Assembly: GCA_944342015.1 (NCBI GenBank)
Contig: CALVMC010000002.1
Location: forward strand, 124,001-188,000
Length of the DNA: 64,000 nucleotides
Source: an uncultured Clostridia bacterium
Lineage (GTDB): Bacteria; Bacillota; Clostridia; Christensenellales; CALVMC01
Direction of reading: 5' to 3'
In this document: in pieces, positions 32,659 to 49,682 of the stretch
How positions within the stretch are numbered: position 1 is the first letter of the stretch
How the letters are laid out: every line of letters begins with the position of its first letter
Notes under the pieces: generated by a model
Databases searched by the model: none
What the model was told of the DNA's origin: nothing
What the model saw: the letters and a program-made list of their open reading frames with translations, nothing else
Translations under genes and position numbers: made by a program

Positions 32659-33537
32659 ATGTCATATTATATTACAGCCGACAACGGCGTGGATTTCCCA
32701 AGAGAATTATTGAAAAATGTTGAAAATATTGCCTTTGAACCCTTACCCGTTTCATTTAACGGAACAGAGTTCGACGGCAAAACCAACACGATAACATTCG
32801 AAGAATTTTACAAAAGAGTGGCAAATAAAGAATACCCCAAAACAAGTATGGTAAATATTGAAAACGCTACTAATTTTTTAGAAAACATCCTTAAACAAGG
32901 TTACGATATATTACACATATCGCTTTCGTCTACCCTTAGCGGCACTCATAACAGTTTTGAATATGCAGGGAAAATTCTTCAAAAGAAATATCCGGAAAGA
33001 AAGATTTTCGTATTGGATTCCGTTTGCGGAGGCCCCGGTCAAAGCATAGTTTTCTATAATGCCGTAAAGATGAGAGATAACGGGGTTCCTATCGAAAAGG
33101 TTTACTCTGCGATGGCAGAGCTTAAAGATAAAGTATGTATAGGTATTTCCATAGACGACCTTTTTTATCTCAGCAAAGGCGGCAGAATTACCAAGGAACA
33201 AGCAATTTTAGGCTCTATAATAAAGCTTAAACCTATACTTTATTTTGATACAAACGGTAAACTTCAACATCTTTGCAAAGTTATAACTAAGAAAAAGGCC
33301 ATGCAACGCCTTGCAGAGATTTATCTTGAAAATAAAGATTTTTCGGAAGGGAAAAACGAACTTTTCATATCTCACAGCGACGCATACGATGACGCAGAAT
33401 ATCTTGCCGCCCTTATAAGGTCGGAATCTCCCGAAACGAAAATTTATATTGATTATCTCGGAACCACAACGGGAGCGTTTGCAGGTATAGGAACAGTTAC
33501 TATTGCATTTGTGAGCAAAAGAAAAAATTTACAATAA
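32659..33537 (+). CDS. DegV family fatty-acid-binding protein (first of a pair), 292 aa
   Basis: DegV proteins bind a fatty acid between two alpha/beta domains. In Bacillota the FakB members hand exogenous fatty acids to the FakA kinase for phospholipid synthesis. The start ATG follows AAGGAG. Visible family features are the N-terminal ITADNGVDFP strand with its Asp, the TSMVN loop (Thr-Ser that touches the lipid head group), SLSSTLSGTHNSF and the C-terminal-domain motif KGGRITKEQA. Length is normal for the family (about 280-300). It is co-transcribed with the next gene, 16 bp downstream, under a perfect sigma-A promoter. PlsY, which uses acyl phosphate, is encoded 5 kb away. Which fatty acid it binds cannot be told from sequence, and no fakA is visible here. 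Confidence 0.85.
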   Translation: MSYYITADNGVDFPRELLKNVENIAFEPLPVSFNGTEFDGKTNTITFEEFYKRVANKEYPKTSMVNIENATNFLENILKQGYDILHISLSSTLSGTHNSFEYAGKILQKKYPERKIFVLDSVCGGPGQSIVFYNAVKMRDNGVPIEKVYSAMAELKDKVCIGISIDDLFYLSKGGRITKEQAILGSIIKLKPILYFDTNGKLQHLCKVITKKKAMQRLAEIYLENKDFSEGKNELFISHSDAYDDAEYLAALIRSESPETKIYIDYLGTTTGAFAGIGTVTIAFVSKRKNLQ

Positions 33538-33553
33538 ATTCTAAGGAGTATAT

Positions 33554-34438
33554 ATGATATACATCACCACCGACACTTCTTTCGATATGCCAAAAGATGT
33601 TTTTCAAAGTCTTAAAAATGTTGCCGTCCAAAAGATAATCGTAAGGCTCGAAGATAAAGATTACGAAGATTTGGATTCGGCTTATATGTTCAAAAAACTT
33701 CGTGAAGGAAAAGTTGTCACAACAAGCGCAATAAACGAATACAACGCATTTGAGTTTTTCGATAATATTGCAAAAGAAGGACACGATATAATACATCTAC
33801 CCTTATCTGCCGGACTCAGCGGAACCTCTGACAATAACATAAGAGCCATGGAAAGAATCAAAGAAAAATATCCGAATGGCAAGTTTTATTCCTTTAATTC
33901 CAATTGTGCAAGCAGCGGGCTTGGAATGCTTGTATATTTTATGGCTAAAAAGCGTGACGAAGGCGCTACATTCGAAGAACTTATAGAGTATCTTATTTAT
34001 CTTAAAGACCATATCAGCCATTATGTTATAGTGGACGACCTTATGTTTCTTATGAGAGGCGGACGGGTAAGCAAAGCGCAGGCAATAGCAGGTACCCTTT
34101 TGCAGCTTAAACCGTTAGTTTACCTTAACGAAGACTCGGGTAAACTTCTTGTATACAAGAAAGTTCCGGGCAGAAAAAAATCCATAATAGAAACCGTTAA
34201 CAAAATGGAAGAAAAGATGATTAATGATACCGAACAGACGGTATTTATAGCACACGGAGACTGTCTTGCCGACGCAGAATTTATGGCGGAACAAGTTAAA
34301 AACCGATTTAACATACCTGCGGAAAATATTCATATAGATTATTTCGGGCCCGTAGTAGGCTGTCACACCGGCCCGGGAACGCTGGTTCTTATCTACCTTT
34401 GCAAAGACAGGCACGAAGCCGTAACCACTAACGACTAA
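33554..34438 (+). CDS. DegV family fatty-acid-binding protein (second of a pair), 294 aa
   Basis: A paralogue of the preceding gene, presumably from tandem duplication. It begins at ATG 33554 after AAGGAG. It shares ITTDTSFDMP at the N-terminus, the TTSAIN head-group loop, PLSAGLSGTSDNN, and RGGRVSKAQA before a KPLVYLNED strand. Paired FakB paralogues with different fatty-acid preferences (saturated versus unsaturated) are known in Bacillota. The two copies here differ in the lipid-facing loops, so a split of substrates is plausible but not shown. The protein is cytoplasmic with no signal peptide. A hairpin followed by a T-run ends the unit 30 bp downstream. Confidence 0.85.
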   Translation: MIYITTDTSFDMPKDVFQSLKNVAVQKIIVRLEDKDYEDLDSAYMFKKLREGKVVTTSAINEYNAFEFFDNIAKEGHDIIHLPLSAGLSGTSDNNIRAMERIKEKYPNGKFYSFNSNCASSGLGMLVYFMAKKRDEGATFEELIEYLIYLKDHISHYVIVDDLMFLMRGGRVSKAQAIAGTLLQLKPLVYLNEDSGKLLVYKKVPGRKKSIIETVNKMEEKMINDTEQTVFIAHGDCLADAEFMAEQVKNRFNIPAENIHIDYFGPVVGCHTGPGTLVLIYLCKDRHEAVTTND

Positions 34439-39245: not shown

Positions 39246-42200
39246 TTATTTAAGAACCACGGCTTTACCGCCTGCAATCATTATAAGTTTAGCTGCTTGT
39301 TCGGTAAATTCGTTTGCAATAATTGTAAGCTCTTTATTCAAAGGTTTATCTGATACAGTAACCCTTACCCTCTGAATTTTATCTTTATTTAACAGACCTT
39401 TTTCTTTCATTGCGTCGATATCGGCAACCTCGCCGTCATTGAAATTATCGGCAATCTGAGAAACGGTAAGTTCAACAACCGGTGCGTTTTTATATTTGAT
39501 ATTATCGGCGCTGCTTTTTACGAGAATTAAGGCTTCTGCGCTCTCGTCGTCAAGCTTTGGTATATCGGTAATGTAAGCAGGTTTTTTAATTACCTTTTTA
39601 AGCTTTGCAAGAGCCGTTTCGTAAGGCGAAACTCCGTAAACCAACTGCGAGAAGTTAAGCGGACTGAAATTCGATTTAGGTTTGATAGAGAAATTTTTCA
39701 TAACCATATCGACAAGTTCCATAGCATATTTGACTCCCCTGTTGGAAGCGACTCTTAAAAGCGTAGGTGTTTGCTCATACATTTTAAGTGCAGACATATC
39801 CTTAACGAAGTATTTAGGATCAACTATCGCAGGATTGATATTGAAATAAAGTTTAAGAGTTTTATTTCTCAGCGAAAGTTTAATCAAAGGCAATCTGTTA
39901 TAAGTGAAGGTATCGAACTTATAAGAGAACCTGTCGTTAACTCCTATAAAACTCAAAATATAATTTTTTATTTTGGTAAAGTTATCCTGAGTTACCTTGT
40001 CGGCTTCTTTAAGCCTTACAAGCAGTTTAGGCGCCCTTTTACCGCTTGAAGAAACTTCTTCTTCATCGTCCTCTTCATCGAAAATATCGTCGTCAAAAGC
40101 GGCGGCTGCTTCGTTACCGTACTCGATAGCATTATCTATATTGATAATGTTATTCGAATGGTTTTTAAAGGCAGGAGTAAACTCTTTTTCGATATTGAAG
40201 GCTTCGCTGTCAATATTTTTATCGCCGTCGTTTGTACTGTCTTTAATATCTTTATTATTAATATCAGATAATTTCAAACTGTCAGAACTCGATTTACCGT
40301 TCTTTAACTTGGAAGATTTTTCTTTTTTGGAAGGACTTTGTTTCGTCAATCCTAATATATGACTTTCAGGACTGCTTTCAAATTCGCTTACATCGATATA
40401 ATCGCCTTCATCTTCGGCATTATCCGCAAAACCTAAGGAAGCGGCTTTTTTATAATTTTTCTGAATAGCGTTGAACTGTCTTTCGATTTCGTTTTTCTTT
40501 GCGTCAAGCATTCTGCGTTTGCTGTATGAAATATAATCTTTTACGATTTTTTCTCTGAGTCTGATGCTTTCGATTTTGTTTCTGAGCTGATTGAGTTTGT
40601 CGAGCAACTCGAACTCTTTGATTTTCTTGACATCGCCGAGTTTTATATCGGAATTTTCCAGTCTGTACTGTTCGATAACGGAATTAATATAAGCTTCCAA
40701 ATCGTTAGATGCGTCAATCATATGAAGATTCTTTTTAGACTTGGTTTTCTTTTTAGGTCTTGCATTGTATTCTAGCAGTTTCTGCAAGTTTTCTTCGTTG
40801 TTTTCAAGTAAATACTGAATTTCGATTTCGGCACCGCTTCTGAGTTCTTTTGCTTTGAGTTCGGCTTTTTCCCTGAGTTTTTTAGCCTCTCTTTCAGCCT
40901 TATCGAGAATTTGCAAAGCTTGTTTTTCCATAGCGAGTTTAACATCCTGGGCTTTGCTACCCGCATCGGAACGCAGTTCAAAGGCCTCTTTTTCGGCTTC
41001 GAGTTTTAAAAGATTGGCTTCTTTTTCAGCATTGTTTTTGATCTGTTCGGCTTCTATTTCGGTTTTAAGTCTGATTTTGTCGGCTTCGAGTCCTGCTTTG
41101 GAAATAATAGATTCAGCCCTTTCTTCCGAAACTTTAAGAACGCCGTATGCTTGCTTTTCGATACTCTTTTTAATGGCTTCCGCTTCTTTTGCGCTGAGAG
41201 TCTGTAATTTTTCAGCCTCCTGTTTTCCGCTGCGCATAATTTCGTCACGACTGTTAACTGCGTCACGGATTTCCTCACGAAGCTGTTTTTCTATTTCAGC
41301 CTGTTTTGCAAGTTTTTCCTTTAACTGTTCGATTTCTTTGTTTAACTGACTTTTTTTAGCTTCGCTTTCAATCTGAGCCGAAAGCCTGATTTTTTCGACT
41401 TCGAGAAGAGCCTGTTCTTTGGTTTTGATAGCATCGAGTTCAGCCTGTCTTTTAAGTGCAAGAATTTCTTCTTCCGCCTTGGCTTTTGCTTCGATAGCTT
41501 CTCTTTCTAACTGTTGTTTTTTCAAAATAGCCTGTTTATTAATATCGTTAATCATGGATTGAAGTTTTATTTCTGAATCCTGAATAACTTTATCGGCATT
41601 TTTTTCTGCAATTTCTATAAGAGAATCGCCTTTTTTGTTTGCCTCGTTTTTGATTTCATCGGCAATTTTTCTTGCTTCGTCTAAAATTCTGGCGGCTTCT
41701 TTTTCTGCATTCGCTCTCTTTTCGTTGATAAGACGGGTTTTTTCAATGCGTTCTTCTTCGGCATTTTTAATATATTCTTCTCTTGAATCGAGAACGATTC
41801 TGTGTTTTTCTGCTTCGGCATTTGCAACATCGATTATGCGCTTAGCGTCTTCTTCGGCTTTAAGGCGCAGTTTTTCTTTTTCTTCCTCGGCATTTTCGAG
41901 TATCATCTGAGCTTCCGCCTCGGCTCTTTGAAGTATTTTTAAGGATTCGAGTTCGGCTTCCATTTTTGCTTCTTCTCTGCCGCCTTCTACCCTGCTGTTG
42001 ATCTCCTGCGCTCTTTTTTGCGCTTTCTGAATTATTTCACCCGCTTTGTTTTGAGAACTTGCAATAAGAGCGGAAACAGCTTCTTCGTTTTCTTTACGAA
42101 TCCTATCGGCTTCGTTGACAGCGTCTTCGAGTACTTTATTAAGTTTTGCCCTTAATTCTTCCTCGCTTGTACCGTCAAGAGAATCGGATAATCTTTTTGC

Positions 42201-45200
42201 CTCCTCTTCGGTTTCTCTTTCCACACTATTTAATAATTCTTCGGCCTTTTTCTTTGCGTCGGCGATAATGTTTTCGGCTTCCTGCTCGGCTTTTTCGAGA
42301 ATCTTCGACTTTTCTTCTTCGGCGTCCTCTTTAATGTGTTTAGCCGTAATTTCGGCTTCGTCTTTAATTCTCTTGCTGTCTGATTCGAGTACCGTTTCTT
42401 TCTTTTCGATTTCTTCGTCTGCGGCGGCGATAAGTTCGGAAGCTTTGTTTTCAGCCTTATCGCTGAGTTCGGAAGCTACCTTTTCGTATTCTTGTTTTAT
42501 TCTTTCGATATCAGCGTCTCTGCGCTCTTTGATTTCACGGGCAGCCAAATCTGCCTTTTTATTGATTTCGTCGACTAACTTATCGGTTCTGATTCTGATT
42601 GCCGCAATTTTTTCAGAAGTAAATATATCTGAATTTTTATTCAGAAGTTCGATTTCATAATCGCCCTTATCGATAATTTTCTGAGCTTCTTCTTCGGCTT
42701 TTGCTCTGATTTTATCGACTTCTAATTTAGCGCGCTCTCGTAAAGCCTCAGTTTGTTTTGCACCTTCGTGGAGTAAGGCTTCTGCACTTTTTTCGGCTTC
42801 GTCAATAATATTTTTTGCAGAATTTTCCGATTCGTTCAGCTTATTATCGGCATTGATTTCAGCGTCGGACAAAAGCAAATCCGCTTCGTGTTTGGATTTA
42901 TCATAGTATTCCTTAGCCTGACTTTCATATTGGGATTTAATTTTTTCGACTTCCTGTTCGGCTTGGGAAATAATTTCTTTTGCTTTCAATTCCGCTTTGG
43001 ATTTGATGTCTGCAACATTATTTTCAAGAGCTTTCTGATTTAATATCTGAGACTTATAATCGTTAAGTTCTTTATCAGAGTTTTCTTTAATATTTCTGAT
43101 TAAAACGGAAGCTTCGTTTCTAATTCTTGCAGCTTCTTTTTCTGCGTTTAATTTAATTGCGGAAGCCTGTTCTGCGATTTTTTCTTTAATATCCTTAACA
43201 ATAATATCGGCATCGAAGATATCGTCTTCCAAAGCAAGCGCACCGAGTTTATCCATTTCTTTATAAGAATTATTTTTTAAAGAAATGGCGTTTTTAAGTC
43301 TGTCGATTCTTCTGTCAGCTTTCTGTTTAATGTTCTTTGCGACAGTTTCGGCGCGCTCTCTTATTCTCTGTGCCTCTCTTCTTGCGTCTTCGTTGACGTC
43401 TCTTATTTTCTGTTCATAACGGGATTTAACGTCGACGATTTCTTTTTCGGTTTGAAGTTTGATAATTTCAGCCTGTTTTTCTGCTTCTTTTACAAGCTCT
43501 TCCGATTGTTTTTCGGCATCGGGCGAAGAACCTTTAAGAATTCTTTTTTCTGCGCCGGATTTAACTTCGGCAATACTGTTTTGAGCACTGCTTCTTATAT
43601 CGTTTTGCTTTAAGAGAGCTTCTTCTTTGAGTTTTTCGATATCTCTTTCGAGTTCTTCGTTGATTTCTATTTCTTTTTTGCGTGCGTGTTCGATAAGCGA
43701 TTGGGCTTCTCTTTCGGCGTCTTTATGGATAGCGAAAAGTTCCTTGCTTATGGAATTTACATTTTCGACGCTCTTTCTTCTTATATTGATTACTTTCTCT
43801 GCTTCTTCCTTAACAATCTGGGCGGCTTTTTCTGCTTGAACCTTGAATCTTTCTATTTCTTTTTCTGCATTTTCACGAAGTTGTTTTATTCTGTCTTCGA
43901 GTTCAACCGTATAAGATTCCATTTGACTTCCGGCATCATCGTAAATTCTTTGAGAACTAATTTCAGCCTCGGATTTTATTTCGGCGATGTCGGAATCGCT
44001 GTCGAAAGATTTTTTCCTTATTTCGAGAAGATTTCTGTATGCGTCTTTTTTAACTTTTTCGGTTTTATAAGCGCAATCTCTTCTGAGTCTGTCGATTTCT
44101 TCTTTCTCTTCCCTTTCGAGGGACTCTATTTTTTCTTTTGCGTTTTCTAATATTTTGTTAGCTTTTTCTTCCGCTTCGTCCAAAATTTCATCGGCTTCCT
44201 GTTCGGCTTTTTCTCTCATTTCGATTAAATCGTTATAATCGATTTTCTGTACGGAAGAATATTTGCTCTTGAGGTCTTCTATTTCTTTTGCGTACTGTTT
44301 TTTCATGAGCTGAATTTCTTTTTCAGCTGCGGCTTTGACTATCTGAGCTTCTTTCTCTGCGGCTGCGCTTAAAATTTCGCTTTCTCTGCTTGCGTCGATT
44401 AACAAAGCACGGGCTTCGTTTTCAGCGTCGTTCTGAATATCGTAAATTTCCTTTTCGGTTTTTTGTCTGAATTTTCTTTCGATTTCCGAAGAAAGTTCAT
44501 TTACATCCTTATTGAAAGGAAGGGCTAAATTATATTCTTCCGAACCGCCTTTTGAAACATCTATACCCGCACGGGCGGAAAGTATGTCGGCAAATTTTTG
44601 GTTCTGCTCTCTGATTTCGGTGCGGATTCTGTTTTCGAGCAAACCTATTCTGTCGTTGACTTCTTTTTGAATTTTCTGTTCGATTTCTAACGGAGAAGCA
44701 GAATAATCAGAACTTTTTGCCGGTAAAAATCTCATATTTTCCATGACATAAAGTTTGTTTTCAAGGGTACTCATTTTATTGAGCATTTCCATTTTGTCTC
44801 TGGTAATGCGATTTTCCTGGTCGATTCTGTCTCTGAAACTAAGCTCGGTTCCGATTTTTTCTATTGCGCTATCGATACTTCTGAATTTTTCCATAATGGC
44901 ATTATCGAAAGTATTGACGGGAAGCTGACCTGCACGCATTTGTTCAAGACGGCTTAATCTGTTATTAAGTTCTTCGTATACTGCATTGTATTTATTTTTA
45001 GAAAGGTTTTTAGAGTAACCGCCTTCAAGGGCATTAAGTCTGCCTGCAAGGTCGTTGAACATGGAAAGGTCGTCCGAAGTTGCGCCGTAACCGCCGTCGA
45101 GTCTGTTAATGCGCCTTACCATATCGTCAAGAAGTCTACCGTTTTTATTTGAAAGTTCTGCGATTTCACGCTCGGCGTTACTCTTTTCCGCCCGCATTTC

Positions 45201-47564
45201 TTCAAGAACGGTTTCAATATCTTTTAATTTATTATTGAGAATAACCATATCTCTGTCGGACTTATCGGTAAAATCGAGCATATCGTCTTTGGGCGGTTTT
45301 CCGGTAAGACTGCTTTCGATTTTTTCTATTCTTCTGGTCATTTCTCTGATAAGACCCGACTTTTCGTCCATTCTGTCGTTTCTTAAAGTTTCCTGTTTGG
45401 CTTTTTCCAAAAGACCTTTTGTTTCTTCTATCTGATTAAGTCTGACTTCGATACTTGCGATACTTTCACTGTTCAGCATTTGTTCATTTAAGACTTCGTC
45501 GAAAGCGTTATCGCTAACATTTTCTATATTACGCTGAGCAGCTTCTATATTATTGAGACGCTGTTCGATATCGTCAAAAAGGACATTCAATTTAAGCAGA
45601 TTATCTTCCTGCTGTACTTTTAATTCGTTATAAGCGGTATCGTTGATAGCACCCCCGCCGAACGACATACTGTTTTGTGCAATCATAAGGTCGTTCTGGA
45701 AATTTTCTATTGTAGCAATCCATTCTTCGAGTTGGGCGACTTTGTTTTGGAGTTCGAAGTTAGAAGCGCCGGGACCGTCCATACGGCGGAATTTATCTGA
45801 AACATCGTATTCGAGATTTCTGTAATTTGAAACCAAACCGTCAAGTTCGGATTTAAGGTTATTGATTCTGCTTTCTATGGGCGTAATATAGTTGTCGAAA
45901 AGGTACTTTTCGCTTTCGGAAAGTTCCCTTCTCAGAGTTTCGCTGGAAATTCTGTCATTGTTGTAAGGATTTAAAAAGTTATTGAATCCGTACATATTAG
46001 ACATAGAATCAATAGGTCTTGGAGTCTCGTACATATTCGGAGCATAGTAATTAGGTCTGGGATTGGCGGTAGAATATGTCGGTCTGTCTGAAACCTGAGA
46101 ATAATAGTTTTGCGGTGCCGAATAAGGCTGCTGTGCAAATTGATTTTGAAAAGCCTGAGGAGATTGCTGATATTGAGAAGGTTGCTGGAAAGGAGGCTGT
46201 TCAAAAGGAGTTTGCATCTGAGGAGCCTGTTGAGGTTGTTGATAAAATTCCTGCGGTTGATTTACAGGTTGCTGTTGATAAACTTGCTGCGGTTGATTTA
46301 CAGGTTGAGACTGCTCGAAATTATTTTGCTGATATTGAAGAGGAGCTTGGGGTTGTTGATAAACGGTCTGCTGAGGTTGAGGAGCGGACTGAGCATAAAC
46401 GGTATTATCCTGAGCCTGTTGCGGATTATTAACAGAAGCAGCAGGTTGTTCAATAGGCTTTTCGGGTTCGGGAGCAGCGTAGATATTTGAATTTTGCTCG
46501 GAACTCTGTTCCTCTTTAATTTCGTTTTTGTCGTAATAATCCTTAACGCTTTCGCCTGCGTGTTCGGTGAGTTTGTCAAAAGAATCTGCATTCGTATCGT
46601 CGGAAAAATGGAAAAATCCTGCTTCGTCGCTAACAACAGGCAAAGTTTCGTTGCCGGTATATTGATAATCTTTTTTTCTTTTCTTTTTAGCCTTTTTCTG
46701 TTTTTTCTTACCGACAATAGGCATACCGTTCATTTCGGCAATAATCTCGTCTTTTTTCTTTTCCCATTTCTTCCAAAGAAGGTATCCGTAAATTTCTTTA
46801 TCTTCGGGAGCGACCGCCTGATAAATCTGAGTTTTGATTTCGGAATTAAGATAATAACCTACATTCTTCTTAACGCACTTTTTATCGAAAAGAGAAATTT
46901 CGCCTACCAAAACCTTTTTGATAAGTTTTTTAACGGAAAAGTAACTGCTGATATTGTAAAGCATTAAAAGCAGTAAAATAACAGGAGGAACAATTAATAA
47001 AGCAGAGGCGATATAAATATTATCGTACAGTTCGAGATAGGAAATAATGTATGGGGATATAGTTCCTATATCGCCAAGGACATAATCGCTTTCGATAAGA
47101 ACCTCATCGGTTGAATCTGTCGATATAGAGTACCAAACATTGATATTATCACGGTATATTTCTTCTATTATACCGACGAAAACTTCGGAAGTAGCATTTT
47201 CATAATTTTCGTTAGCGATATCGCTTCCTTCCGAAGGAGTGGGTATATAAGTATAATAAGCGATAACATCTCCGACAATGTAAGCTGCGGGATCGACCGT
47301 TATATTTACTGCTAATTTATCGCCGTAATTATAGTTTGCGACTTTTGCCGTATTGTCGTTAGCCTTGACTTCCACATAATAATAATTAAGAAAAGCGCCG
47401 TCAACATTCATGAATTCACGGACTATTATATTATATGAGCCGAAAAACATTAAAGCTAATACAAAAGGTAAAAGCAAAATAAACAGAAAGTTTACAATTC
47501 TTCTTTTCGTTATGAGTGAAATTTTTTTAGACGCTTTTTTTACATCGCTTAAAATATCAGGCAT
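39246..47564 (-). CDS. giant membrane-anchored coiled-coil protein with S26-like and uL15-like domains, 2,772 aa
   Basis: The start is ATG 47564, 7 nt after GGGGGAG. Order: a basic cytoplasmic start; TM1 (~23-46); an external domain (~58-168) with VGDVIAY, FVGIIEEI, WYSISTDSTDEV and VLGDIG, resembling the signal peptidase (S26) fold without its Ser or His; TM2 (~184-205); a Lys-rich segment; a Gln/Pro-rich stretch (~355-510); about 1,900 residues of Glu/Lys/Ala-rich coiled coil, much in 11-residue repeats; an acidic linker; a globular domain (2527-2630, FDTFTYNRLPLIKL and LRNKTLKLYFNI) that I have seen in other Clostridia proteins without a name; and a last 80 residues like the uL15 C-terminal half. 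A two-pass topology puts the coil in the cytoplasm. It is second in an operon with a smaller relative. Function unknown: a scaffold tethering something, perhaps ribosomes, to the membrane is a guess. Confidence 0.88.
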   Translation of the reverse strand: MPDILSDVKKASKKISLITKRRIVNFLFILLLPFVLALMFFGSYNIIVREFMNVDGAFLNYYYVEVKANDNTAKVANYNYGDKLAVNITVDPAAYIVGDVIAYYTYIPTPSEGSDIANENYENATSEVFVGIIEEIYRDNINVWYSISTDSTDEVLIESDYVLGDIGTISPYIISYLELYDNIYIASALLIVPPVILLLLMLYNISSYFSVKKLIKKVLVGEISLFDKKCVKKNVGYYLNSEIKTQIYQAVAPEDKEIYGYLLWKKWEKKKDEIIAEMNGMPIVGKKKQKKAKKKRKKDYQYTGNETLPVVSDEAGFFHFSDDTNADSFDKLTEHAGESVKDYYDKNEIKEEQSSEQNSNIYAAPEPEKPIEQPAASVNNPQQAQDNTVYAQSAPQPQQTVYQQPQAPLQYQQNNFEQSQPVNQPQQVYQQQPVNQPQEFYQQPQQAPQMQTPFEQPPFQQPSQYQQSPQAFQNQFAQQPYSAPQNYYSQVSDRPTYSTANPRPNYYAPNMYETPRPIDSMSNMYGFNNFLNPYNNDRISSETLRRELSESEKYLFDNYITPIESRINNLKSELDGLVSNYRNLEYDVSDKFRRMDGPGASNFELQNKVAQLEEWIATIENFQNDLMIAQNSMSFGGGAINDTAYNELKVQQEDNLLKLNVLFDDIEQRLNNIEAAQRNIENVSDNAFDEVLNEQMLNSESIASIEVRLNQIEETKGLLEKAKQETLRNDRMDEKSGLIREMTRRIEKIESSLTGKPPKDDMLDFTDKSDRDMVILNNKLKDIETVLEEMRAEKSNAEREIAELSNKNGRLLDDMVRRINRLDGGYGATSDDLSMFNDLAGRLNALEGGYSKNLSKNKYNAVYEELNNRLSRLEQMRAGQLPVNTFDNAIMEKFRSIDSAIEKIGTELSFRDRIDQENRITRDKMEMLNKMSTLENKLYVMENMRFLPAKSSDYSASPLEIEQKIQKEVNDRIGLLENRIRTEIREQNQKFADILSARAGIDVSKGGSEEYNLALPFNKDVNELSSEIERKFRQKTEKEIYDIQNDAENEARALLIDASRESEILSAAAEKEAQIVKAAAEKEIQLMKKQYAKEIEDLKSKYSSVQKIDYNDLIEMREKAEQEADEILDEAEEKANKILENAKEKIESLEREEKEEIDRLRRDCAYKTEKVKKDAYRNLLEIRKKSFDSDSDIAEIKSEAEISSQRIYDDAGSQMESYTVELEDRIKQLRENAEKEIERFKVQAEKAAQIVKEEAEKVINIRRKSVENVNSISKELFAIHKDAEREAQSLIEHARKKEIEINEELERDIEKLKEEALLKQNDIRSSAQNSIAEVKSGAEKRILKGSSPDAEKQSEELVKEAEKQAEIIKLQTEKEIVDVKSRYEQKIRDVNEDARREAQRIRERAETVAKNIKQKADRRIDRLKNAISLKNNSYKEMDKLGALALEDDIFDADIIVKDIKEKIAEQASAIKLNAEKEAARIRNEASVLIRNIKENSDKELNDYKSQILNQKALENNVADIKSKAELKAKEIISQAEQEVEKIKSQYESQAKEYYDKSKHEADLLLSDAEINADNKLNESENSAKNIIDEAEKSAEALLHEGAKQTEALRERAKLEVDKIRAKAEEEAQKIIDKGDYEIELLNKNSDIFTSEKIAAIRIRTDKLVDEINKKADLAAREIKERRDADIERIKQEYEKVASELSDKAENKASELIAAADEEIEKKETVLESDSKRIKDEAEITAKHIKEDAEEEKSKILEKAEQEAENIIADAKKKAEELLNSVERETEEEAKRLSDSLDGTSEEELRAKLNKVLEDAVNEADRIRKENEEAVSALIASSQNKAGEIIQKAQKRAQEINSRVEGGREEAKMEAELESLKILQRAEAEAQMILENAEEEKEKLRLKAEEDAKRIIDVANAEAEKHRIVLDSREEYIKNAEEERIEKTRLINEKRANAEKEAARILDEARKIADEIKNEANKKGDSLIEIAEKNADKVIQDSEIKLQSMINDINKQAILKKQQLEREAIEAKAKAEEEILALKRQAELDAIKTKEQALLEVEKIRLSAQIESEAKKSQLNKEIEQLKEKLAKQAEIEKQLREEIRDAVNSRDEIMRSGKQEAEKLQTLSAKEAEAIKKSIEKQAYGVLKVSEERAESIISKAGLEADKIRLKTEIEAEQIKNNAEKEANLLKLEAEKEAFELRSDAGSKAQDVKLAMEKQALQILDKAEREAKKLREKAELKAKELRSGAEIEIQYLLENNEENLQKLLEYNARPKKKTKSKKNLHMIDASNDLEAYINSVIEQYRLENSDIKLGDVKKIKEFELLDKLNQLRNKIESIRLREKIVKDYISYSKRRMLDAKKNEIERQFNAIQKNYKKAASLGFADNAEDEGDYIDVSEFESSPESHILGLTKQSPSKKEKSSKLKNGKSSSDSLKLSDINNKDIKDSTNDGDKNIDSEAFNIEKEFTPAFKNHSNNIINIDNAIEYGNEAAAAFDDDIFDEEDDEEEVSSSGKRAPKLLVRLKEADKVTQDNFTKIKNYILSFIGVNDRFSYKFDTFTYNRLPLIKLSLRNKTLKLYFNINPAIVDPKYFVKDMSALKMYEQTPTLLRVASNRGVKYAMELVDMVMKNFSIKPKSNFSPLNFSQLVYGVSPYETALAKLKKVIKKPAYITDIPKLDDESAEALILVKSSADNIKYKNAPVVELTVSQIADNFNDGEVADIDAMKEKGLLNKDKIQRVRVTVSDKPLNKELTIIANEFTEQAAKLIMIAGGKAVVLK
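39249..39488 (-). other. uL15-like C-terminal domain
   Basis: Residues 2693-2772. VVELTVSQIADNFNDGEV corresponds to the VVNLxxLxRFxDGxEV strand of ribosomal protein L15. AMKEKGLLNKDKIQRVRV corresponds to LLxExGLIxKLxxGVKI. KELTIIANEFTEQAAKLI then AGGKAVVL corresponds to KLTVKAxxFSxSAKxxI then AAGGxxEVI. Order and spacing agree throughout. No ribosomal protein gene is nearby. Confidence 0.75.
39675..39986 (-). other. globular domain of a recurrent but unnamed Clostridia type
   Basis: Residues ~2527-2630: KIKNYILSFIGVNDRFSYKF, FDTFTYNRLPLIKLSLRNK, TLKLYFNINP, then ASNRGVKYAMELVDMVM. From memory, similar segments (KxELLSYKxVxSRxS, then ARFxxRGKTLCLYLAL, then DRRxKYAxxLI) occur in other large Clostridia proteins. 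I know no function. Confidence 0.5.
40800..41030 (-). repeat. seven exact-length 11-residue (hendecad) repeats
   Basis: Consecutive 11-mers: AEKEANLLKLE, AEKEAFELRSD, AGSKAQDVKLA, MEKQALQILDK, AEREAKKLREK, AELKAKELRSG, AEIEIQYLLEN. This is the best-phased sample of a pattern that runs through much of 40.7-45.9 kb. Hendecads form right-handed or nearly straight coiled coils, as in the ATP synthase b subunit. Confidence 0.85.
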
Positions 47565-47594
47565 TACTATACTCCCCCGCAACCGCTAAAAGCC

Positions 47595-49682
47595 CTAACT
47601 GTTTTTTTTCTCGGACTTTTTCTTGGAATTTCCAGGGATAAAAGGTCCGGAAGTCTTTAAGACAGAAGATGCAGATGTTTTTTCGTTTTTGTTATTAGTA
47701 TCTGCATTTTTTTTGTTTTCCTTATTATTTCTTTCTTCTTTTACTATTTTATCGATACGAGAAGAAAAGTTTGCGCTACTATCCGATTTTGAAACTATAT
47801 TTGTATGTTTAATATCGTAGTTAGAATTTACGGCATTTGCTCTGTCGATATAGCTTTTAGTATAAAGCATATTGGAAGCCTTACTGGTTGTATTTGCATT
47901 AACAGTGGGCTTATAAGTGCCGTTTTCGATAGCTGCTGCTTTTTTCTTTGCTTCTCTTTTCTGCGCCCTTTTGTAGGCTATTTCGGTTTTAGAAGGGCTG
48001 TTTTTAATTTTATCCGAAACGGTAGGATTAAAGACGAGATTTGATTTTGCGCCGACAATACCGGAAGAACCGGAAGTCGGAATTCTTTTCTCGATATGAG
48101 TATTGTCGAAACTTACGGCGCTTTTGACAATAGGACCTGCATTGGTTAAATTGGATCTGTTTACCGTAGGTCTTTCTTGTTTTCCTGTTTGTTCTTTTAA
48201 TTTTTTCTCTTTGTCTATGAGAGCGGATACAAACTTTTTATATTTTTCGTCCTTTTTGTTTTTACCTTTTTTGTTATTAAGATATTTAGCGCCGTAAACG
48301 CTTAAATTTCTGTATTCCTTTTCGGAAAGAGCGTTTTGTTCATTCAGTTTTGCTTTTTCCAAATAAGCCGATAATTCGTCTTGCTGATTTTTTGCAACAG
48401 TTTCTCTGACTTCACGGATAATTCTTTCTTCTTCTTCAAAATCCTTACCGTAAAGGATTTCCTTTGCGCTTTCCTGATTTCTGCGAACGGTATCGTTGTA
48501 TCCGCTTCTGCCTAAATCTTCTCTTACCTCGTTTATGATTTTTTCTTCTTGCTCTAAATCTTTACCGTAAAGAATTTCCTTTGCATTTTCTCTGTTTCTT
48601 TTAACTTTTTCGTAAAGTTCTCTGTTGATTTTTTCGTTGCTTAATCTTGCGTTCATGGGAGCAACGGTTTTCTGTTTGTTTTCAATGTTACCCGATTCGA
48701 GAAGTTTTACCGAATTCTTTTTCTTTGAAGAATTATCGGGTTTAGTTAAAGTTACCTGTTTGTTGCCGTAACCGTAAGGAACGAGATTTTTCTGATTATC
48801 GGTATCTCTTACATGTCTTTTATTTGCATTTACATACTCATTATTATGATTTCTATCGTAAACTTCCCCGGCGGTATCCAATTCTATCTCTTCGTAAAGT
48901 TCCTCATTATTCTTTTTAGGTTTATATTTATTTTCATGTTTTACCTTTTCGGGTTGAGCGCTGTTAGCCGCTGCATTTCTCACGGGATAAGAAGCGCTTG
49001 CATAATCGTTTCTTCTTGCCGAATAGAAAGAAGCAGGATAGCCTTTCATTCTTGCTGCATATTTTACCTTTTTTGAGTTCTTTTCTTTTGTTAAAAGGAA
49101 TATTAAAATGTTAGCGATAATCAGAATAAGAAAAGGAATGGAAATAGAAAGACCGATGTAAGCGGGAGAATTGATATTGAGAATATTCTGAGCAGTAACG
49201 GACGAAGCGGAGATGCAAGCGCCTAAAACGCTTTTATCTTCAACGAAAACGGTAACGCCGCTGTCGTCGTCGGTCTGTAAGTAATAATTTATAGTTCTGT
49301 CTATACTGTTTCTTTCGATAGCGATAACCTTTCCTATAAAAACTCTGTTTTCGTTAGAAACATCGAAATAACTATTGTTTGCGTAAAAAACAGTGTAAGC
49401 AATCACATCGCCTACAATAATCGATTTATCGACATCGACGGCTATTTTTTCGTCGTTACGGAAACCTGAAGCATTGAAAGTAAAATTCGTACTTCCGGCA
49501 CTTGTAGCGGTAATAGCCGAAGTATTACCGAAAGAAGGCACATTGGAATTAAGGCTTGTACTGATAAGAACCACAAGAGCGATGGCGAAAAAAACCAAGG
49601 TTATCGGTACGATAATCGCATTGGTAATAAGATAATATAAAGTGCGTTTACTTCCACGCTGTTTTTCCGAAGCCAAATCCAT
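47595..49682 (-). CDS. membrane protein with S26-like external domain and long basic cytoplasmic tail, 695 aa
   Basis: Starts at ATG 49682 after AAAGGGAAG. TM1 spans ~18-41 and TM2 ~174-197. Between them lies an external domain with VGDVIAY (90-96), FIGKVIAI (115-122), YYLQTDDDSGV (133-143) and VLG (152-154), in the same order as in the 2,772-aa partner and in SipW-type signal peptidases, but with no catalytic SGSM serine or HR histidine. The ~500-residue cytoplasmic tail is Lys/Asn/Glu-rich and mostly disordered. It holds a duplicated motif, ENAKEILYGKDLEQEEKII and ESAKEILYGKDFEEEERII. The partner gene begins 30 bp downstream, so they form an operon. The shared external domains suggest the two proteins pair across their outer faces. 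Function unknown. Confidence 0.8.
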   Translation of the reverse strand: MDLASEKQRGSKRTLYYLITNAIIVPITLVFFAIALVVLISTSLNSNVPSFGNTSAITATSAGSTNFTFNASGFRNDEKIAVDVDKSIIVGDVIAYTVFYANNSYFDVSNENRVFIGKVIAIERNSIDRTINYYLQTDDDSGVTVFVEDKSVLGACISASSVTAQNILNINSPAYIGLSISIPFLILIIANILIFLLTKEKNSKKVKYAARMKGYPASFYSARRNDYASASYPVRNAAANSAQPEKVKHENKYKPKKNNEELYEEIELDTAGEVYDRNHNNEYVNANKRHVRDTDNQKNLVPYGYGNKQVTLTKPDNSSKKKNSVKLLESGNIENKQKTVAPMNARLSNEKINRELYEKVKRNRENAKEILYGKDLEQEEKIINEVREDLGRSGYNDTVRRNQESAKEILYGKDFEEEERIIREVRETVAKNQQDELSAYLEKAKLNEQNALSEKEYRNLSVYGAKYLNNKKGKNKKDEKYKKFVSALIDKEKKLKEQTGKQERPTVNRSNLTNAGPIVKSAVSFDNTHIEKRIPTSGSSGIVGAKSNLVFNPTVSDKIKNSPSKTEIAYKRAQKREAKKKAAAIENGTYKPTVNANTTSKASNMLYTKSYIDRANAVNSNYDIKHTNIVSKSDSSANFSSRIDKIVKEERNNKENKKNADTNNKNEKTSASSVLKTSGPFIPGNSKKKSEKKNS

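Follow-up and report, generated by a model that had tools for sequence, protein, structure and literature searches.

The window, the whole stretch of 64,000 nucleotides analysed here, holds an open reading frame (39246–47582, minus strand) that stays open for 2,778 codons, with Met7 (at 47564) as the likely start. All features of this protein given below lie on the minus strand.

A giant membrane protein and its neighbours

By hydropathy, a Lys/Arg-rich cytoplasmic N-terminus is followed by a first transmembrane (TM) helix (residues 29–47; 47442–47498), an extracytoplasmic domain (residues 48–188; 47019–47441), and a second TM helix (residues 189–207; 46962–47018) with a Lys-rich cytoplasmic segment behind it. 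The positive-inside rule would place the coil and the tail that follow in the cytoplasm, in agreement with the membrane-anchored, cytoplasmic placement given in the preliminary description. The upstream gene (47595–49682, minus strand; 695 residues), 13 bp away and also found in genome G001 of the same genus, follows the same TM-domain-TM-tail plan without the uL15-like module described below. The N-terminus of its product (orf695) is akin to the extracytoplasmic domain (29% identity, E 1e-6), and the adjoining genes thus have a TM-domain-TM N-terminus in common (46908–47582 in the giant protein). The GDVIAY...VFIGKVI pattern of this domain recalls SipW-type signal peptidases; a search of Pfam gave no SipW-type match.

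A Q/P/N-rich segment (residues 340–640; 45663–46565), probably disordered judging from its composition, precedes a long hendecad coiled coil (residues 1080–2290; 40713–44345), which has a hydrophobic periodicity of 3.64–3.68 and a proline-free run of 922 residues. A coil of ~1,900 residues had been described; the coil exists, but its clearly periodic part spans ~1,200 residues, the periodicity being weaker between residues 640 and 1080. From its length, the coil could reach up to roughly 180 nm if fully extended. An acidic region lies between the coil and a basic frataxin/CyaY-like domain that resembles YdhG, YjbR and DUF5655 proteins and that we call module A (residues 2515–2634; 39681–40040; HMM score 162 bits). 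Next comes a linker helix (residues ~2664–2700; 39483–39593) with a conserved [DE]-x-x-A motif (DDESAEAL), which accompanies the uL15-like module in the alignments of its relatives and appears in the AlphaFold2 model as helix 168–173. The uL15 C-terminal-domain-like module itself (residues ~2701–2778; 39249–39482), detected by Pfam PF00828, hhalign and VIA, closes the protein; the homology covers ~2701–2776, its last residue falling two codons before the protein end. The module therefore does not sit directly at the end of the coil, as had been supposed, and follows module A and the linker helix instead.

Elsewhere in the window, a 9,076-residue open reading frame (3604–30834, minus strand) has a lipoprotein-like N-terminus and gave no match in a Pfam search of its first 4,500 residues, and two adjoining genes (32659–34438, plus strand) are DegV-like by sequence recognition.

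The uL15 homology and the fold of module A

The tip of the window protein is a true homologue of the globular half of ribosomal uL15, and the reading that its last residues follow the C-terminal half of uL15 is borne out by profile and structure alike. PF00828 (Ribosomal_L27A) matches the whole protein with E 1.1e-4 (23 bits) and the last 178 residues with E 1.2e-6 (29.3 bits); the scores of the window module range over 23–31 bits, all above the curated Pfam cut-off of 21.5. TIGR01071 (rplO_bact) matches at 1.9e-6 (27–28 bits, far short of the 77.95 bits of its equivalog cut-off) and starts only at profile position 69, the linker and module A preceding the match. At the family level, hhalign of the module family (50 rows) against 31 genuine uL15 sequences gives P 99.4 and E 3.1e-21 over 72 columns, and a profile of 50 relatives finds uL15 chains in the PDB at E 1e-12. 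The AlphaFold2 model has block pLDDT values of 89–97 across the uL15-like module. VIA-align superimposes it on the uL15 chains of many ribosomes, at residues ~70–146, with Z 8.5–11.4 and 1.7–3.4 Å over 71–82 residues (best, 2.5 Å over 79 residues).

A separate, normal rplO is present as well: PF00828 finds exactly two places in the genome, the window frame and a 156-residue rplO on contig C6, which is flanked by rpsE and secY and has the basic N-terminal tail. The low Pfam score of the full-length protein (23 bits) might by itself have suggested a chance resemblance or an assembly chimera, and we regard either as extremely improbable. Chance is ruled out by the family-level profile, the fold and the tree (see below), and a chimera by the independent genome G001, which carries a counterpart 94.5% identical across the whole length of the window protein.

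Module A, predicted alone by AlphaFold2, reaches a pLDDT of 93.8. In the VIA listing, its YdhG (Z 8.6; 9t2w), DUF1801 (8.3; 2oc6), DUF419 (8.1; 2a1v) and YjbR (7.0; 2fki) rows stand above unrelated ones, and the listing also includes the DNA-binding domain of T4 MotA (7.4 and 7.0, the MotA–DNA complex at 7.0) and frataxins. In hhalign, module A matches one DUF5655 protein, which also has a separate N-terminal domain, with P 90; a mixed five-sequence DUF5655 set and YjbR gave no match, nor did Pfam and NCBIfam, and nothing significant was found among PDB sequences. The model supports a frataxin/YjbR-like fold, and module A has a predicted fold in common with YdhG/DUF1801, YjbR (MmcQ) and DUF5655 proteins, although its identity to the closest solved structures is only 6–12% and, unlike these proteins, it forms a tandem cytoplasmic tail domain ahead of the uL15-like module. 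It is strongly basic, with a median net charge of +10 (at least +5 in 99%).

Distribution and architecture of the family

The novelty had been seen in this one protein, yet a profile search of 396 genomes sampled from the order finds the uL15-like module in 79 or more of them when a minimum score of 71 bits is set; genuine rplO reaches 61 bits at best. A scan of named genomes yielded 80 loci, mostly in Clostridia (Borkfalkia, Fimimonas, Gallimonas, Limihabitans and Protoclostridium) and also in Anaeroplasmataceae, Erysipelotrichaceae and other Bacilli. A strict search of 299 genomes from across the phylum (1e-18) gave matches only in the genome of the window and in one 163-residue frame, which may be a genuine uL15; a wide spread across the phylum is not supported by this search. 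Two scans of viral contigs for a viral origin found no module. In a tree built on few columns, a single branch separates the 110 modules from the 31 genuine uL15 sequences with support of 100/99, so that the family appears monophyletic in these alignments, with a single origin. Genome G140 has 11 matches to the module profile (L193–L196 among them), several in proteins of ~1,700–2,500 residues, and these have the look of a surface-protein family that expanded recently.

The position of the module is constant: it lies 0–14 residues from the C-terminus in 80 of 80 loci, and module A precedes it within 120 residues in 70 of them. In the remaining loci module A was not detected or DUF1508 repeats take its place; in the surface protein L069:6606-8324, for example, two such repeats stand ahead of the uL15-like module. 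Small members (~380–540 residues) comprise an N-terminal TM helix, an acidic linker, module A, the linker helix and the uL15-like module. The acidic linker, flexible and found in most members, has a median charge of −12 in 80 residues. Giant members (2,323–5,398 residues) begin with an N-terminal hydrophobic segment, continue with a long, presumed extracellular part, and have TM helices ahead of the tail, with a detectable module A in most. Three members (L089:7058-8340, L114:7124-8318 and L129:7253-8318) have no TM helix by hydropathy, and their N-termini, such as MGLFGRLFGKK, suggest attachment by an amphipathic helix.

Some of the small genes are coupled in operons with surface proteins. 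Among 53 small TM-A-uL15 genes, 12 have their start −4 to +69 bp from the end of an upstream gene with a C-terminal TM helix, and two of these upstream genes have MBG or BspA-type LRR/DUF285 domains. None of the downstream neighbours of the 53 loci ends in a TM helix. At L057, L058, L056, L061, L059, L075, L077, L084, L099, L104 and L110, the TM-A-uL15 gene lies −4 to +12 bp from the end of a TM-ending surface-protein gene. As the A-uL15 unit is found in cis in the giants and as a small gene behind a surface-protein gene, it therefore also occurs as a separate, apparently co-translated subunit. In a search of the gene neighbourhoods for a conserved cytoplasmic partner, no family recurs across clades except these upstream surface-protein genes. 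Neighbours that we name by sequence recognition, rpsF-ssb-rpsR at two loci and a gene resembling the ribosome-assembly GTPase EngB at several Anaeroplasmataceae loci, each stay within a single clade; the A-uL15 gene follows the EngB-like gene at L060, L067, L079 and L081, and at L066 the EngB-like gene lies a few genes upstream.

Possible roles of the cytoplasmic tail

Ribosomal uL15 contacts rRNA largely via its N-terminal tail. In its fold and by homology, the module corresponds to the globular C-terminal domain (~70–146) of bacterial uL15 (PF00828/TIGR01071), and it contains this domain only, without the ~70-residue basic, Gly-rich N-terminal tail; it scores below the rplO equivalog cut-off and is fused to, or encoded beside, membrane and surface proteins. 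Across the 110 modules, six positions at which genuine uL15 mostly has Lys, Arg or His (2755, 2757, 2758, 2761, 2766 and 2773) have lost this character: 2755, 2757 and 2758 are largely acidic, with charge reversed, 2761 and 2766 are hydrophobic, and 2773 is mixed. Glu at 2765 has become an invariant Lys, and 2766, 2768 and 2769 have become Met, Val and Leu. K2765 is found in 100%, M2766 in 96% and L2769 in 89% of the modules, where genuine uL15 has Glu in 77%, Lys in 90% and Ala in 64%, respectively. The window copy is divergent, having K2765 and hydrophobic residues at 2766–2769, keeping K2773 and being without the ARG motif of the family. One of the roles first envisaged, attachment to 23S rRNA at the uL15 site, is disfavoured because the N-terminal tail is missing and six basic positions are changed; to judge from these residues and the missing tail, the module probably no longer grips ribosomal RNA.

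These changes also weigh on the idea that the tail is a ribosome tether, the uL15-like tip and the basic module A binding the 50S subunit, polysomes or a uL15 partner and so holding translation at the membrane. The homology to uL15 speaks for it, as do the charge of module A and its likeness to YjbR, a protein named as nucleic-acid binding, and to the MotA DNA-binding domain; the rpsF-ssb-rpsR and EngB-like neighbours are weak hints in the same direction, limited to single clades. With the tail absent, the basic positions reversed, and genuine rplO occupying the site, we consider a tether quite unlikely, and a membrane-anchored mimic of a ribosomal protein, which at the cell membrane, and in the window protein from the tip of the coil, would capture ribosomes, polysomes or a 50S-associated factor, is, if anything, slightly less credible. 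Somewhat better placed, though still unlikely, is an anchor to the nucleoid or to other nucleic acid, in which module A would bind DNA or RNA and tie surface proteins to the nucleoid while the uL15-like domain would do no more than stabilise or dimerise it. The YdhG, YjbR and MotA–DNA superpositions, the strong positive charge, and the hhalign match to the DUF5655 protein with its separate N-terminal domain are all consistent with such an anchor. However, Z values near or below 8 may reflect a shared arrangement only, frataxin-like folds serve many functions, and some tails do without module A, one carrying DUF1508 repeats instead. If, on the other hand, the module acted passively, as a C-terminal cap or for retention, keeping the tail from being exported or shielding it from proteolysis, with no specific partner, its constant place at the extreme C-terminus and the strongly acidic, flexible linker ahead of module A in most members would be accounted for. 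The module-specific conservation of the surface around K2765 and M2766 would then be unexpected, and a separate-gene form exists; we hold a passive cap to be very unlikely.

On balance, we find it somewhat probable that the domesticated uL15 fold is a cytoplasmic protein-docking module of membrane proteins, to which module A adds a polyanion contact. Of the roles first proposed, reusing the fold to bind another partner is indeed the best-fitting, and the residue patterns point this way because 110 modules fix a Lys-Met-hydrophobic surface and have lost the basic positions of uL15. The single clade, the constant C-terminal position, the giant and split forms and the charge of module A speak for docking as well, whereas the gene neighbourhoods, which show no conserved cytoplasmic partner, and the divergence of the window copy speak against it. 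The module goes back to one copying of the globular half of bacterial uL15, in the course of which the RNA-inserting N-terminal tail was lost, and in certain Firmicutes it now forms the cytoplasmic end of membrane-anchored proteins. Through the helix S-x-x-A-x-K-M-I-x-L, the invariant lysine and the hydrophobic residues gained in the module may be offered to a partner in the cytoplasm, or the module may bind itself; the basic frataxin/YjbR-like module A may bind a polyanion, for example nucleic acid or acidic lipid. The docking module and module A would jointly anchor or cluster a membrane or surface protein from inside; in the window protein, the long hendecad coil would keep the docking tip well away from the membrane.

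Among the papers searched, none deals with the module family, with DUF5655 or with a moonlighting role of uL15 in membrane proteins. Some public homologues may be automatically named 'uL15 family ribosomal protein', a phrase that none of these papers uses. What we describe is a familiar fold in a cellular setting new to it, with homologues already in public genomes. A further comparison is with the giant surface proteins of Firmicutes, whose MBG domains and List-Bact or BspA-type repeats are matched in the extracellular parts of several family members (Pfam matches to List-Bact repeats and MBG domains). Unlike such surface proteins, the module family is anchored by TM helices and has a folded cytoplasmic A-uL15 tail, and the window protein differs further in its extracytoplasmic domain of only ~140 residues.

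In sum, the family clearly shows a domain of a core ribosomal protein that, by a single event of duplication and relocation, became a cytoplasmic tail which is confined to certain lineages and carried by membrane and giant surface proteins. Module proteins risk annotation as ribosomal proteins, from which the residue signature given above separates them. Conserved tails joined to variable outside parts point to a common cytoplasmic partner, in abundant and mostly uncultured gut bacteria that include the wall-less Anaeroplasmataceae.
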